In this document: one piece after another, positions 22,802 to 27,299 of the stretch
Numbering within the stretch: position 1 is the stretch's first letter
How the letters are laid out: each line of letters starts with the position of its first letter
Source of the DNA: Pseudobdellovibrionaceae bacterium
Lineage (GTDB): Bacteria > Bdellovibrionota > Bdellovibrionia > Bdellovibrionales > UBA1609
Assembly: GCA_947444305.1 (NCBI GenBank)
Contig: CANEZP010000002.1
Location: 62,001-126,000, forward strand
Direction: 5' to 3'
DNA: 64,000 nt
Notes under the pieces: model-generated
Databases searched by the model: none
What the model was told of the DNA's origin: nothing
Seen by the model: only the letters and a program-made list of their open reading frames with translations
Translations under genes and position numbers: made by a program

Positions 22802-23443
22802 TCAACGGAACGGGGGCAACTGGTAAATCTGATCGGCTAAGAATTCGCCGGCCGCATCGGCCAGGTGCAGCCCGTCGGGGAGTAAATCACGGAAGGTGAG
22901 GCGCTTCCCTTTCACTTCGAGGTAGCGGTCTTGCATCACTTTTCGGTGCAGATCGTCGAGTTTGAGCACGAAGCAATTCTTCTTAGCGACGCAACGTTCG
23001 CGAATCTCTTTGTTGAGCGCCGTGCGGCTGGCCTGGCGTGGGCCCAGCAAGGAAGGAATATCGCCGACGATCAGCGGAATTTTTCGTGCACCCGCCAACC
23101 GGATCAGACGATCGAGCGCTTGAACGCTAGGTTTGGTGTCGGGGTAAACCGAATCCCAAAACAGAAAATCCATCGCCAGAATGATCGATCTATCTTTGAC
23201 CAAATCGGGCGTTAGATTTTCGGCTTGCGCGCGGCCGGCCGAACCGGGGGTGGCGATGTTCACGATATTTTCTTTTGTGGTGTAGCGAAGGGCGAGGCGG
23301 TCACCGGGGCCGAGCGTGCCGTAACCCGCACTCACGCTGGCGCCGACGATCAACGGCTTTTTTAACAGTTCATGCGCGGCGCTGACGACCGGAGTGGCAA
23401 CTAATGTCATGCAGAGGATTCCCCGTAACCAATTGAAGAGCAT
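22802..23443 (-). CDS. SGNH-hydrolase-like exported protein
   Basis: A 213-residue protein with an N-terminal signal peptide (MLFNWLRGILCMTL to VVSA). The block I segment VGASVSAGYGTLGPGD and the C-terminal DGLHLADAAGEFLAD resemble SGNH/GDSL esterase blocks I and V, with GAS in place of GDS. It is probably an extracytoplasmic esterase or an inactive relative. ATG 23443 was chosen because it begins the signal peptide; the region upstream belongs to the BlaI control region. Confidence 0.7.
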   Translation of the reverse strand: MLFNWLRGILCMTLVATPVVSAAHELLKKPLIVGASVSAGYGTLGPGDRLALRYTTKENIVNIATPGSAGRAQAENLTPDLVKDRSIILAMDFLFWDSVYPDTKPSVQALDRLIRLAGARKIPLIVGDIPSLLGPRQASRTALNKEIRERCVAKKNCFVLKLDDLHRKVMQDRYLEVKGKRLTFRDLLPDGLHLADAAGEFLADQIYQLPPFR

Positions 23444-23514
23444 GCCGTAATATAAGTCGGCCCGGAATTTCTGTCGACGTCGGCGCAGGCCCGCGTACCG
23501 TCGCAGGTCTAGTT

Positions 23515-23532
23515 CAACTAACTTCTTAGTTG
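23515..23532. promoter_or_regulatory. BlaI-type operator 1
   Basis: CAACTAACTTCTTAGTTG has perfect 7-base arms around a 4-base centre and is one of two near-identical palindromes ahead of the blaI-like gene. The centre-to-centre distance to the second copy is 22 bases, two helical turns. Confidence 0.75.
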
Positions 23533-23536
23533 CTAT

Positions 23537-23554
23537 CAACTAAAAGCTTAGTTA
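23537..23554. promoter_or_regulatory. BlaI-type operator 2
   Basis: CAACTAAAAGCTTAGTTA shares the AACTAA-N4-TTAGTT arms with operator 1. Two phased operators just upstream of the repressor gene are typical of autoregulated BlaI/MecI operons. Confidence 0.75.
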
Positions 23555-23578: not shown

Positions 23579-23971
23579 ATGAAAAAGAACAAGCTACCCG
23601 AGAAACTACTCACCGACGTTGAACTCGAATTCATGACGGTCATCTGGAAACTGGGCGAGGCGACGGTCAACGACGTCCTCGAGAATCTGCACGGCGATCG
23701 CAAAGTCGCTTACACCTCCGTTTCAACGATCCTGCGGATCCTCGAGCAGAAGCGGGTGCTCGGCACGCGCAAAGAAGGGCGGGGGCACGTTTACCTTCCG
23801 CTCCTCAATAAACAAGATTACGAATCGCGAACGCTACAACATGTCGTCGATAAAGTTTTTGACGGCACGCCCGTCGCGCTCGTGCGCCAATTGCTCGGCT
23901 CGGTAAAAATGAAACCGGAAGAACTAAGTGAGCTCAAAACCTTGCTCAAACAATTGGAAAAGAACAAATGA
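23579..23971 (+). CDS. blaI: BlaI/MecI-family repressor
   Basis: A 130-residue winged-helix repressor. TDVELEFMTVIWKLGEATVNDV, AYTSVSTILRILEQKRVL and the coiled C-terminal dimerisation region match the penicillinase-repressor family. Known mechanism: the repressor is cleaved or inactivated when a BlaR1-type sensor is triggered. The ATG follows GGAGGAC and its stop overlaps the sensor gene by 4 bases. The gene symbol is by family only; no beta-lactamase lies next to it, so its targets may be cell-wall genes. Confidence 0.88.
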   Translation: MKKNKLPEKLLTDVELEFMTVIWKLGEATVNDVLENLHGDRKVAYTSVSTILRILEQKRVLGTRKEGRGHVYLPLLNKQDYESRTLQHVVDKVFDGTPVALVRQLLGSVKMKPEELSELKTLLKQLEKNK

Positions 23972-25551
23972 AGATCTTCAGCTTTTTACTGACGTTCAAC
24001 CTTGTCGCCGCCGCGGCGGTCACCTGCTTGATCCTTTTAGCGCCCCTCATGCGCAGAATCACCGCGGGTCGCCGGCTCACTATTCACTACGCGACGCTGG
24101 CCTTCGCGTTTATCGTGTCGACCGGCGTGACCCTGAAAGGCGGCGGCGAGATTTTCGAACCCGTCGTCAAAGTCTGGTCGGCCGCGGCGACTTCGGGCCC
24201 GGCCTTCGGGGCCTCCGCCGAACACGGAGCTCTGCAAGTGCACCGGCACGCACTGCCGGTGCCGGCGGACTACTTCTTTTTGTTTTCCGTCGGCCTCGCG
24301 GCCGGCGCGGGATTCGTCGGATTGTTCTACGTGCTTCGCGGCGCCCGGCAAATTTCGCGGATGCTTCGCCGTGCCCACGCTCTTCGCCGATTGGGCCGGG
24401 TGCGCGTGCTGATCAGCGACGAAGTGGACATCCCCTTTTCGTATCGCTCACCACGCTTCGCTTACGTCGTGGTCCCGCAATACCTGATTACGAATGCAAA
24501 CTCTTTGAGACTAACGATTGCGCACGAGCTGCAGCACCACCGACAGCGTGACACGCGCTGGGCCTACGCCCTTTTGCTTACGCGCGCGGTGTGCTTCATG
24601 AATCCCTTCGTGCATTTTTGGAATCATTGGATCGGGGAGTTACAAGAATTTGCCTGCGACGAAGCTTTGGTTGGCCGCCATGGTGCTTTGAAGCAGGACT
24701 ATGCCCGCTGCCTCATCGAGGTTGCGGAAACCGCCTGGGTTCACGGGAGCGTGCCTGCCGGCGCCACCGGTATGATCCTCCTGAACCGGGGCAATCTACT
24801 CAACAGGAGAATTCAAGTTATGTTCAAAGAGAAATCAAATACCGGAAAAGGAAAAGTTGCGGGCCTCACGGCCTTCGCGATGATCGCTTCGCTACTTACG
24901 GCGACGGCTTTCGCGACCAAGAATTTAGTGCAGGACCGCCGCGTGACCCTCGCGCAAGCGCAGCGGATGAATTCCGCGACGTCAAAAGAGTCGGCGTTTC
25001 CCGTCGTGGTGAACGATGAAGTTTTAAAATTCCTTAATCACTACATCGGCACGCCCGACGGCCGCGAGAAAATGCGCATTGCCCTCCGCCGGCTGGAGAG
25101 CTACCGGCCGATGGTCGAAGCGAAGATCGCGGACTACGATGTCCCAACCGAACTGCTGGCCATTCCGCTGATCGAATCGGGTTACCAAAATCTTCCCGAC
25201 CGCAACAAAGAAGGATACGGCGCGGGTCTTTGGATGTTCATCGCTTCGACGGCGAAGGCGTACGGGCTTAAGGTCGAAGGTCACGTCGATCAGCGTTTGG
25301 ACGAAGCGCTGCTCACCGACGCGGCCATGCGCTATTTGCTCGCGAATCGTCTGCGCTTTAAAGATTGGCCGCTCTCGGTATTGGCATACAACGCCGGCGA
25401 GTCGAGCATCCAGCAAGCCATCAACGAATCGGGCACCCGCGACGCGTGGTCGTTGGTGCGTGACTCGCGACTTTCAACGGAGTCGAAGAATTATTTGCCG
25501 AAGTTGATGGCCGCGATCCTCATCATGAGGAATCCGTCGAGCGTCGATTAG
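23968..25551 (+). CDS. BlaR1-like M56 peptidase fused to MltD-type lytic transglycosylase
   Basis: A 527-residue membrane protein. Residues 1-290 form an M56 peptidase unit: membrane segments near 5-25, 40-57 and 102-123, zinc motif HELQH at 186-190, and EFACDE at 227-232 as likely third-ligand region. A further membrane segment lies at about 297-317. Residues 345-527 are an MltD-like lytic transglycosylase with catalytic Glu403 in IPLIESGY, GYGAGLWMFIASTA and LAYNAGESS. In classical BlaR1 this C-terminal position holds the penicillin-binding sensor. The frame is uninterrupted and couples to blaI by ATGA. The inferred role is sensing or remodelling of peptidoglycan and relief of BlaI repression. 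Confidence 0.88.
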   Translation: MKIFSFLLTFNLVAAAAVTCLILLAPLMRRITAGRRLTIHYATLAFAFIVSTGVTLKGGGEIFEPVVKVWSAAATSGPAFGASAEHGALQVHRHALPVPADYFFLFSVGLAAGAGFVGLFYVLRGARQISRMLRRAHALRRLGRVRVLISDEVDIPFSYRSPRFAYVVVPQYLITNANSLRLTIAHELQHHRQRDTRWAYALLLTRAVCFMNPFVHFWNHWIGELQEFACDEALVGRHGALKQDYARCLIEVAETAWVHGSVPAGATGMILLNRGNLLNRRIQVMFKEKSNTGKGKVAGLTAFAMIASLLTATAFATKNLVQDRRVTLAQAQRMNSATSKESAFPVVVNDEVLKFLNHYIGTPDGREKMRIALRRLESYRPMVEAKIADYDVPTELLAIPLIESGYQNLPDRNKEGYGAGLWMFIASTAKAYGLKVEGHVDQRLDEALLTDAAMRYLLANRLRFKDWPLSVLAYNAGESSIQQAINESGTRDAWSLVRDSRLSTESKNYLPKLMAAILIMRNPSSVD

Positions 25552-25567
25552 TAACGGTTGCCCTACG

Positions 25568-25593
25568 GGAGGGGGAGGTGATATCCCCCTTCC
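25568..25593 (+). promoter_or_regulatory. Hairpin enclosing a strong Shine-Dalgarno sequence
   Basis: GGAGGGGGA pairs with TCCCCCTTCC across the loop GGTGATA. The near-perfect anti-SD match GGAGGTGAT lies inside the fold and ends about 15 bases before the ATG at 25598. It may restrain translation of the next gene, or act as a weak transcript barrier after the M56 gene. No T run follows. Confidence 0.4.
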
Positions 25594-25597
25594 TATT

Positions 25598-25957
25598 ATG
25601 CAAGTCACATTACCGACATGGATGGTTTGGATCGCGCAATGGATTGTTTCCGGTATGGCGATCGCTTTGACCGCCGCCGTCGTGCCGGGTTTCCGGATTC
25701 GCGGCTTCGGAACGGCTCTGATCGCGAGTCTCGTGATCGGACTTTTGAATATCTTCGTACGTCCCGTACTCGTTTTTCTAACTTTACCGTTAACGCTTCT
25801 GACAATCGGGCTCTTCTTGATCGTCGTGAACGCTATCGTGTTAAGAATCTGCGCGGCTTTCCTTGATGATTTCGAGATTTCGAATTGGTTCTCGGCCATT
25901 TTAGGCGCGATCGTCTTGGCCCTGGCCGACACTCTTCTGCACGCGCTCTTGATCTAA
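25598..25957 (+). CDS. Phage-holin-family-4-like small membrane protein
   Basis: A 119-residue protein with four membrane segments. GLLNIFVRPVLVFLTLPLT is typical of the Phage_holin_4_2/YvlD-like membrane family, which is common on bacterial chromosomes and is usually not a phage lysis protein. It sits 46 bases after the M56-transglycosylase gene and before ampG, so a link to envelope maintenance is plausible but unproven. Confidence 0.83.
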   Translation: MQVTLPTWMVWIAQWIVSGMAIALTAAVVPGFRIRGFGTALIASLVIGLLNIFVRPVLVFLTLPLTLLTIGLFLIVVNAIVLRICAAFLDDFEISNWFSAILGAIVLALADTLLHALLI

Positions 25958-26003
25958 TCCGTTCGGTCTTGCAAAGCCTCGCGACTTCGTTAGACTTTAG
26001 GGC

Positions 26004-27299
26004 ATGAGCAAACTCAAAGCGGTCCTTCGCAATCCCAATCTACTCGTGGTTTTCGTTATGGGCTTTTCCTCCGGTTTACCTTTTCTGATGGTAGGCGGAA
26101 CGTTGAAGACCTGGATGCGCGAGGCCGGTCTCGATTTATCGACCATCGGCTTTTTTTCGATGGTGGCGTTGCCGTATTCATTGAAATTCATGTGGGCGCC
26201 GTTCATGGACCGCTACGTGCCGCCGCTCGGCCGCCGGCGTGGTTGGCTTTTCATTAGTCAGACGGGTTTAATGCTTTCGATCTTCGCGCTCGCGCAGGTT
26301 GATCCGGTCAGCCAGTTGAATTTGCTCGGCATCATGGCCACCGTCGTCGCGTTCTTCGCGGCCAGCCAGGACATCGTGATCGATGCTTACCGCCGCGAAA
26401 TTTTACCGGAAGAGCAACTCGGGCTCGGCTCATCGCTTTACATTCCCGCGTTCCGCCTCGCGATGTTGCTCGTGGGCGCCGGCAGTTTTTCGTTCTCCAA
26501 GCGCATGTCTTGGCCCAGCGTTTATATGCTACTCGGAAGCCTAATGTTGATCGGCATCATCACAACGCTGCTCTGTAAAGAACCGAAAACCGAAGCGCCA
26601 CCTCCGCGCACGCTCGGCGAAAGTGTCTTCGGTCCGCTGAAAGAATTTTTCTCGCGTGATTCGGCTTTTCTGATTCTCGCGTTTATCTTGCTTTATAAAT
26701 TGGGCGAAGCGATGGCGACCGGCATGCTCAATCCGTTATACATCGATCTCAAAATCGACAAAGACGCGATCACGGTGGCCGCAAAGTTTGCGGGGTTCTG
26801 GGCCACGATGGCCGGCGGGATCGTCGGCGGATTGTTCATTCTGAAGTTAGGCATTCACACGGCGCTCTGGGTATTCGGAATTTTACAGAGTTTGGGCTTG
26901 CTGCTATTTTCTTACCTCGCGCATTTTGGTCAGGCGCTGATCGCATCGGACCCGTCCGCTACGACGGTGGATACCGCGACCATTTTGCCTTTGCTGACGG
27001 CTTCGATCGGGGTCGAAAATTTCACGGCCGGGATGGCGACTACGGCATTCGTGGCGTTCATGGCGACGCAAACGAACAAGCGCTTCACCGCTACCCAGTA
27101 CGCTCTGTTGACGAGTTTGATGGCATGGCCCAGTTCGCTGTTCGGCGTGCTCGCCGGCGTTCTGGCCGAGCATTTGGGTTGGGAAATGTTCTTCGTCGTG
27201 TGCACGATCCTGACCATTCCCGGTTTGGTCATTCTCATTTGGATGAGGAAATTGCAGGCGCCGGTAAACCTACCGGTGAATCCCGCGGTCCTGCCTTAG
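26004..27299 (+). CDS. ampG: AmpG-like muropeptide permease (MFS)
   Basis: A 431-residue transporter with about 12 membrane helices. FSSGLPFLMVGGTLKTWMRE, MVALPYSLKFMWAPFMDRY and LGRRRGW match AmpG, which imports anhydro-muropeptides released by lytic transglycosylases. It stands 46 bases after the holin-like gene and follows the BlaI/M56-transglycosylase operon, giving a coherent release-and-import context for peptidoglycan fragments. The assignment to AmpG rather than another MFS branch is good but not absolute. It overlaps the convergent arfB gene by 4 bases. Confidence 0.85.
   Translation: MSKLKAVLRNPNLLVVFVMGFSSGLPFLMVGGTLKTWMREAGLDLSTIGFFSMVALPYSLKFMWAPFMDRYVPPLGRRRGWLFISQTGLMLSIFALAQVDPVSQLNLLGIMATVVAFFAASQDIVIDAYRREILPEEQLGLGSSLYIPAFRLAMLLVGAGSFSFSKRMSWPSVYMLLGSLMLIGIITTLLCKEPKTEAPPPRTLGESVFGPLKEFFSRDSAFLILAFILLYKLGEAMATGMLNPLYIDLKIDKDAITVAAKFAGFWATMAGGIVGGLFILKLGIHTALWVFGILQSLGLLLFSYLAHFGQALIASDPSATTVDTATILPLLTASIGVENFTAGMATTAFVAFMATQTNKRFTATQYALLTSLMAWPSSLFGVLAGVLAEHLGWEMFFVVCTILTIPGLVILIWMRKLQAPVNLPVNPAVLP

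Follow-up and report, generated by a model that had tools for sequence, protein, structure and literature searches.

Does a BlaI-type repressor, encoded together with a receptor that carries a peptidoglycan-cleaving domain, form one circuit with the muropeptide permease encoded downstream of it? The question is raised by four consecutive genes, blaI, m56-slt, a 'holin-like' gene and ampG, in a 64,000 nt window of Pseudobdellovibrionaceae bacterium (GCA_947444305.1, contig CANEZP010000002.1, positions 62,001–126,000). Coordinates below count from the start of this window, which is the whole stretch of DNA analysed and comes from a genome of 4.17 Mb that is 97% complete. A preliminary description had proposed that sensor, enzyme and importer make up a single feedback circuit, and its account of the four genes, their strand, their spacing and their family names was borne out by open reading frame (ORF) coordinates and by Pfam and NCBIfam searches. 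The first gene, blaI (23579..23971, + strand), encodes a BlaI/MecI/CopY-family repressor (PF03965, 5.6e-31, 107.7 bits against a Pfam cut-off of 22.6) and overlaps by 4 bp (23968–23971) with m56-slt (23968..25551, +), the single protein product of which joins a BlaR1-type M56 membrane protease (PF05569, 9.6e-19) to an MltD-type lytic transglycosylase (SLT) domain (PF01464, 3.5e-14). Two gaps of 46 bases each (25552–25597 and 25958–26003) separate this gene from that for a PF04020 'holin-like' membrane protein (25598..25957, +; 2.5e-29), and the latter from ampG (26004..27299, +), a predicted transporter of the muropeptide permease family (MFS_1, 2.3e-25 in Pfam; TIGR00901, 457.2 bits against a cut-off of 350 in NCBIfam). 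Searches of the window's genome found no other PF03965 gene, no other M56 protein above cut-off and no other member of the PF04020 family. We think it reasonably probable, by analogy with BlaR1, that blaI and m56-slt are a stand-alone module in which a peptidoglycan-responsive receptor is its own main induced product.

The established role of BlaR1-type receptors is the sensing of beta-lactams. The BlaR1/BlaI and MecR1/MecI systems of Staphylococcus aureus and Bacillus licheniformis resemble the present pair in that a BlaI-family repressor lies beside an M56 gluzincin receptor with conserved HExxH, third Glu, Asp and Arg, and in that the extracytoplasmic sensor position is at the C-terminus. 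These features were examined in an alignment of 58 distinct fusions, which remained from 70 collected once rows sharing the last 150 residues had been dropped. The HELQH zinc motif (H186, E187, H190; 24523..24537, +), which aligns with the HExxH of BlaR1, was kept in 57/57 fusions, as were the third zinc ligand and the gluzincin Asp (E227 and D231; 24646..24660, +), which align with BlaR1 E242/D246. R281 was also kept in all 57 fusions that hold the region, its match to BlaR1 Arg294 being one of position in the alignment only. The full set of residues expected of an M56 receptor protease is present in the window protein, and in an AlphaFold2 (AF2) model built from 35 sequences (predicted local distance difference test score 85.9) residues 3–277 superposed on S. 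aureus BlaR1 (8exs) with a Z of 18.4 and a root mean square deviation (rmsd) of 3.9 over 238 aligned residues. After the last transmembrane helix stands a signal-peptidase-like AxA motif, A314-F315-A316 (24907..24915, +), with Ala at 316 and Ala, Val, Ser or Thr at 314 in 42/58 fusions. The staphylococcal BlaR1 sensor is described as being shed by signal peptidase at the equivalent linker (PMC9834060), and release of the transglycosylase domain at the AxA-like site is possible.

The domain that follows is where the fusion departs from BlaR1 and MecR1, since the only Pfam matches are M56 and SLT and the place of the C-terminal penicillin-binding (transpeptidase/class D) sensor is taken by a lytic transglycosylase. 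The SLT domain (aa 389–495; 25132..25452, +; PF01464) lies within a C-terminal part that aligned with MltD PRK10783 in an NCBIfam search, and residues 337–527 of the AF2 model matched Pseudomonas aeruginosa MltD (8rhe/8rhf/8rhi) with a Z of 21.6 and an rmsd of 2.3 over 182 residues. The two share the SLT fold and an aligned catalytic Glu (E403; 25174..25176, +; aligned with the MltD ES motif), which is present in 58/58 fusions. They differ in that the window domain is anchored by an M56 receptor, has no LysM found by Pfam and carries Met in place of the Gln of the GLWQ motif (M423; 25234..25236, +), so that this last hallmark of MltD-type enzymes is missing from the window protein. Of the 58 fusions, 28 have Gln at position 423, 25 have Met and 5 another residue, and the tree implies no fewer than 11 Q/M changes; Gln stands there in 21/21 free-standing SLT proteins of relatives. 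The motif Tyr is kept in 54/55 fusions. The catalytic acid thus appears constrained and the motif residue at 423 free, a pattern consistent with slow turnover or with a role in binding.

This pattern gives some weight to the idea that the transglycosylase domain serves as a glycan-binding sensor with weak or no catalysis and that the module only reports the state of the wall. The Gln is replaced in 30/58 fusions against none of the 21 free enzymes, it has changed repeatedly on the tree, and the slow-turnover sensor of BlaR1 as presented in PMC7593790 offers a parallel. A catalytic Glu without exception in the alignment and a nearly invariant Tyr speak for retained activity, and we regard a purely reporting domain as rather unlikely.

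The pair itself is widely distributed. A protein search of 58 relatives (the window's own genome included) found full or partial fusions in nine, and M56 profile matches were present in 33/140 genomes of the order (Bdellovibrionales, by contig matches). When the ORFs were read at 30 of these loci, an SLT fusion was found in 21/140 genomes (truncated at contig ends in G019 and G058 and split into two ORFs in G123), and a further M56 gene, in G127, is truncated upstream of where the domain would lie. blaI lies directly upstream of the fusion in 21/21, with a 4-bp overlap in 16, a 1-bp overlap in three, a 7-bp gap in one and an ambiguous start in one. Named genomes, a set that overlaps with that of the order, gave 59 M56 loci, 49 of them with an SLT domain, from Bdellovibrionota, Myxococcota (Corallococcus, Hyalangium), Gammaproteobacteria (Steroidobacter agaridevorans and a Lysobacteraceae metagenome-assembled genome (MAG)), a Desulfobacteraceae MAG and a doubtful Bacteroides-labelled MAG. 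Outside Corallococcus kin no neighbour family recurred around these 49 loci, save dehydrogenases and transporters of common types. Downstream of the fusion, crude ORF calling placed the next ORF on the opposite strand at 27 of the 49 loci and on the fusion's own strand at 19; at three it lies beyond the contig. The sensor–enzyme pair of the preliminary description is therefore real and widely conserved (21/140 order genomes; 49/59 named loci), and blaI-m56-slt is apparently a conserved, self-contained and self-regulating two-gene module.

Three loci in this survey call for separate mention. In G123 the M56 and SLT halves are two adjacent ORFs (L133:7773-9418), which reflects either a frameshift or a true split. 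The Bacteroides-labelled MAG (sp. SM23_62; L160:6986-8527), counted within the 49, encodes a truncated M56 followed by SLT and M23 in one frame; no upstream blaI was found, and an error of binning or assembly may explain the locus. In G053 the genes divergent from blaI-m56-slt (L036:236-7512) look by eye like lexA, imuA, imuB and dnaE2, which we take them to be; such genes did not recur beside the other fusion loci.

A repressor of the BlaI/MecI family is expected to act at an inverted-repeat operator, and one is present at the promoter of blaI itself, where binding is predicted. Putative dyad 1 (CAACTAA-CTTC-TTAGTTG; 23515..23532) has no mismatch to the dyad and putative dyad 2 (CAACTAA-AAGC-TTAGTTA; 23537..23554), 22 bp from it, has one. 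The inner palindrome TTAGTTG-N4-CAACTAA was taken as the operator at first and then discarded, because the dyads of G008, about 31 bp apart, show the outer dyad ACTAA-N4-TTAGT to be the unit. Related half-sites occurred at all nine fusion loci that were read first, with the wider spacing in G008 and a degenerate copy in G019. Among the 49 named fusion loci, 39 were testable, having both blaI and sufficient sequence in front of it; paired dyads with at most one mismatch each, 22–23 bp apart, lay upstream of blaI in 39/39. The other ten comprise seven with no blaI in the locus (six begin at a contig end) and three cut upstream. As a control, a pair occurred in 248/9800 random 310-bp windows of these loci, all of them on that operator as far as positions show.

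Genome-wide, the tandem pattern (up to three mismatches) was found in 16/21 fusion genomes and as a single copy in 14, the window's genome among them. The second copy of G015 is directly before a second blaI and that of G019 has three mismatches. As to the five genomes with no tandem match, the locus of G130 is truncated by its contig end, the dyads of G008, G129 and G125 are spaced by 31, 23 and 21 bp, respectively, and G128 remains. The preliminary description had suggested looking for BlaI operators elsewhere; in the window's genome no single dyad with 0–1 mismatch was found besides dyads 1 and 2. Five further sites with two mismatches were rejected as a wider regulon, since the reversed-pattern control gave 20 (at most two mismatches). 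Because dyads 1 and 2 are the sole strong copies in this genome, control by BlaI most likely extends no further than its own operon. A comparable arrangement is reported for BlaI_1845 of Clostridium thermocellum, where four half-sites in two inverted-repeat pairs lie upstream of the repressor's own operon and DNA affinity purification sequencing (DAP-seq) gave a one-operon regulon; that operon differs in having an ordinary BlaR1 and another half-site sequence, and the published account as consulted describes no transglycosylase fusion (PMC8457756).

These results bear on the reading that the gene families would suggest at first sight, an ordinary beta-lactam resistance regulator in which BlaR1/BlaI controls a beta-lactamase. 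The BlaI and M56 families are indeed both present, but the transpeptidase/beta-lactamase sensor domain is absent and SLT stands in its place, so that the domain content already contradicts this reading; nor does an operator link the pair to a second operon. BlaR1 and MecR1 differ again here, in that the fusion module was found with no beta-lactamase or mecA target and its regulon is apparently its own operon. We consider such a regulator extremely improbable. No description of an M56-SLT fusion was found in the open PMC literature, to which the search was limited and which is no proof of absence.

By sequence, then, the module unites BlaI, an M56 gluzincin with an intact zinc site, a periplasmic MltD-type domain where BlaR1 has its penicillin-binding sensor, and a two-dyad operator. 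BlaR1 is reported to cleave BlaI directly (PMC9834060). We propose that the operon would be repressed by a BlaI dimer bound at each of the two dyads, four protomers in all, and that the transglycosylase domain would engage altered glycan strands, whether gapped, uncrosslinked or anhydro-ended, perhaps those of a prey wall. The signal would cross the membrane, the M56 domain would cleave BlaI and the operon would be derepressed. Because no other strong operator was found in the window's genome, the receptor-enzyme itself would be the main induced product, combining sensor and output. A wall fragment might also act on BlaI in the cytoplasm, as in B. licheniformis, a possibility that needs no adjacent ampG.

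Several observations weigh against this proposal. EL1 (residues 60–98), the signalling loop of BlaR1, was not confidently modelled in the AF2 model. The AxA is a consensus-level motif that is absent in that register from 16/58 rows, and the Met for Gln exchange in 25/58 fusions, the window's included, may mean weak or lost catalysis. The operator scan would miss targets with a single or weaker operator, and longer operons are possible at the 19 loci with a same-strand ORF after the fusion. A more specific model, with EL1 as a plug docked in the transglycosylase groove, was dropped as unsupported, residues 60–98 not being resolved.

The closed one-operon regulon could also serve a homeostatic anchored enzyme, with M56 cutting BlaI constitutively and so setting the enzyme level without ligand sensing, and spontaneous autocleavage of BlaR1 is on record (PMC9834060). 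The membrane half is conserved, however, the extra domain is placed as in BlaR1, and other M56 proteins hold transpeptidase or M23 wall domains at the same place; we find constitutive cleavage unlikely and continue to prefer a peptidoglycan-responsive receptor.

Those other M56 proteins with BlaI upstream carry a transpeptidase (L138, L139), M23 (L192), TonB_C (L193, L194) or ankyrin repeats (L197, L198), or have no recognised domain; for L120, L121, L124 and L125 the Pfam scan added no sensor domain. The M23 receptor (L192:6530-8029, blaI upstream) is from a SAR324 MAG, and paired dyads like those of the SLT fusions precede blaI both there and at the TonB_C loci L193 and L194. G015 carries both receptor types, M56-SLT and M56-transpeptidase; the latter has a penicillin-binding transpeptidase domain (L044:1905-3476) on a contig cut such that its upstream gene is unseen. 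We tentatively suggest that the M56 receptor fold is a general scaffold on which peptidoglycan enzymes are used as sensors (transpeptidase, lytic transglycosylase, M23 endopeptidase, SLT + M23), in several cases controlled by the same tandem BlaI operator. Receptors with SLT could be sensor and effector in one: a membrane-anchored wall cutter, possibly released by signal peptidase, that wall damage would induce by way of a positive loop confined to one operon and requiring neither beta-lactams nor AmpG.

It remains to place the two downstream genes. The preliminary description had made them part of one circuit, in which imported anhydro-muropeptides would feed back on BlaI. The common strand and the short gaps agree with such a co-regulated loop, read-through from m56-slt into the holin-like gene and ampG is possible in the window's genome, and a peptidoglycan-derived dipeptide is reported to be able to release BlaI in B. 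licheniformis (PMC3305447). Conservation of gene order, which had been proposed as a check, argues otherwise. An AmpG homologue lies near 1/49 named fusion loci (L173), about 5 kb off and on the opposite strand, and the holin-like gene near none; neither was found at 24 loci of the order with longer flanks (L036-L044, L126-L140; some not SLT fusions). Contigs are often short, and these absences apply to the available flanks. AmpG homologues occur in 32/58 relatives, and no match was found in 4/9 fusion genomes (G012, G015, G019, G021), all four incomplete at 80–89%.

In three genomes of the same genus, which lack blaI and m56-slt, ampG is close to the holin-like gene, in differing orders and orientations: G001 shares with the window the order holin, AmpG, ArfB; in G002 AmpG comes first and a single gene separates it from holin; and in G003 the two are convergent. 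In G002 and G003 the same stretch holds homologues of the window genes upstream of the blaI-m56-slt pair, which from our own reading of the sequences we take to be S1/P1-type nuclease, PurT-like and ABC-F-like. Since these genus-mates keep holin and AmpG without the pair, blaI-m56-slt, between PurT and holin/AmpG, has the appearance of an accessory insertion, or of a remnant that the other members of the genus have lost.

No BlaI operator was found near the holin-like gene or ampG, and ampG probably has its own leaderless promoter, with TAGACT (25991..25996, +) as the likely -10 box. A TAnnnT pattern 5–7 nt before the ampG ATG is seen in 4/4 same-genus genomes against 6/46 long window ORFs as a control, a small sample, and more distant AmpG genes in this comparison do not generally have the box. 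The PF04020 gene is not part of a phage lysis cassette, being chromosomal and in the same locus region in genus-mates. Since its family occurs in 4/14 named control genomes, 'holin' is a Pfam label with no sign of phage. We judge the two genes to be neighbours with an independent history, outside the module, and a single sensor–enzyme–importer loop to be decidedly unlikely; of the proposed circuit, the sensor–enzyme pair stands and the membership of holin and AmpG is not supported, most of what the preliminary description had named as a refutation having been observed.

That sensor–enzyme half is more interesting than the preliminary description stated. In AmpG-AmpR-AmpC signalling, too, transglycosylase-made anhydro-muropeptides are imported by AmpG (PMC3660660); here AmpG is linked to blaI-m56-slt by neither neighbourhood nor operator. 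If our proposal is correct, a widespread BlaR1 relative has a wall-cutting enzyme as its sensor, an architecture that would read the state of the peptidoglycan itself, and Gram-negatives of predator-rich lineages (Bdellovibrionota, Myxococcota) would have a wall-damage signalling route besides AmpG-AmpR.

Some minor features of the locus may be added. A weak PADLOC match of BlaI to CARF (the sole hit, E 4e-4) was attributed to the common winged-helix part and set aside. Scans for sigma-70 promoters and terminators gave numbers of matches about those expected by chance. The gap before the holin-like gene contains, at 25574–25592, GGGGGAGGTGATATCCCCC, a strong Shine-Dalgarno sequence within a possible hairpin. 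Upstream of blaI, a divergent gene (22802–23539, − strand) encodes a secreted protein with no Pfam match, which judged by eye is presumably SGNH-like. A promoter-like site, TCGACA-17-TATATT, stands just before its probable ATG (23443). Some 38 bp separate it from the BlaI operator, and BlaI may thus control this gene.

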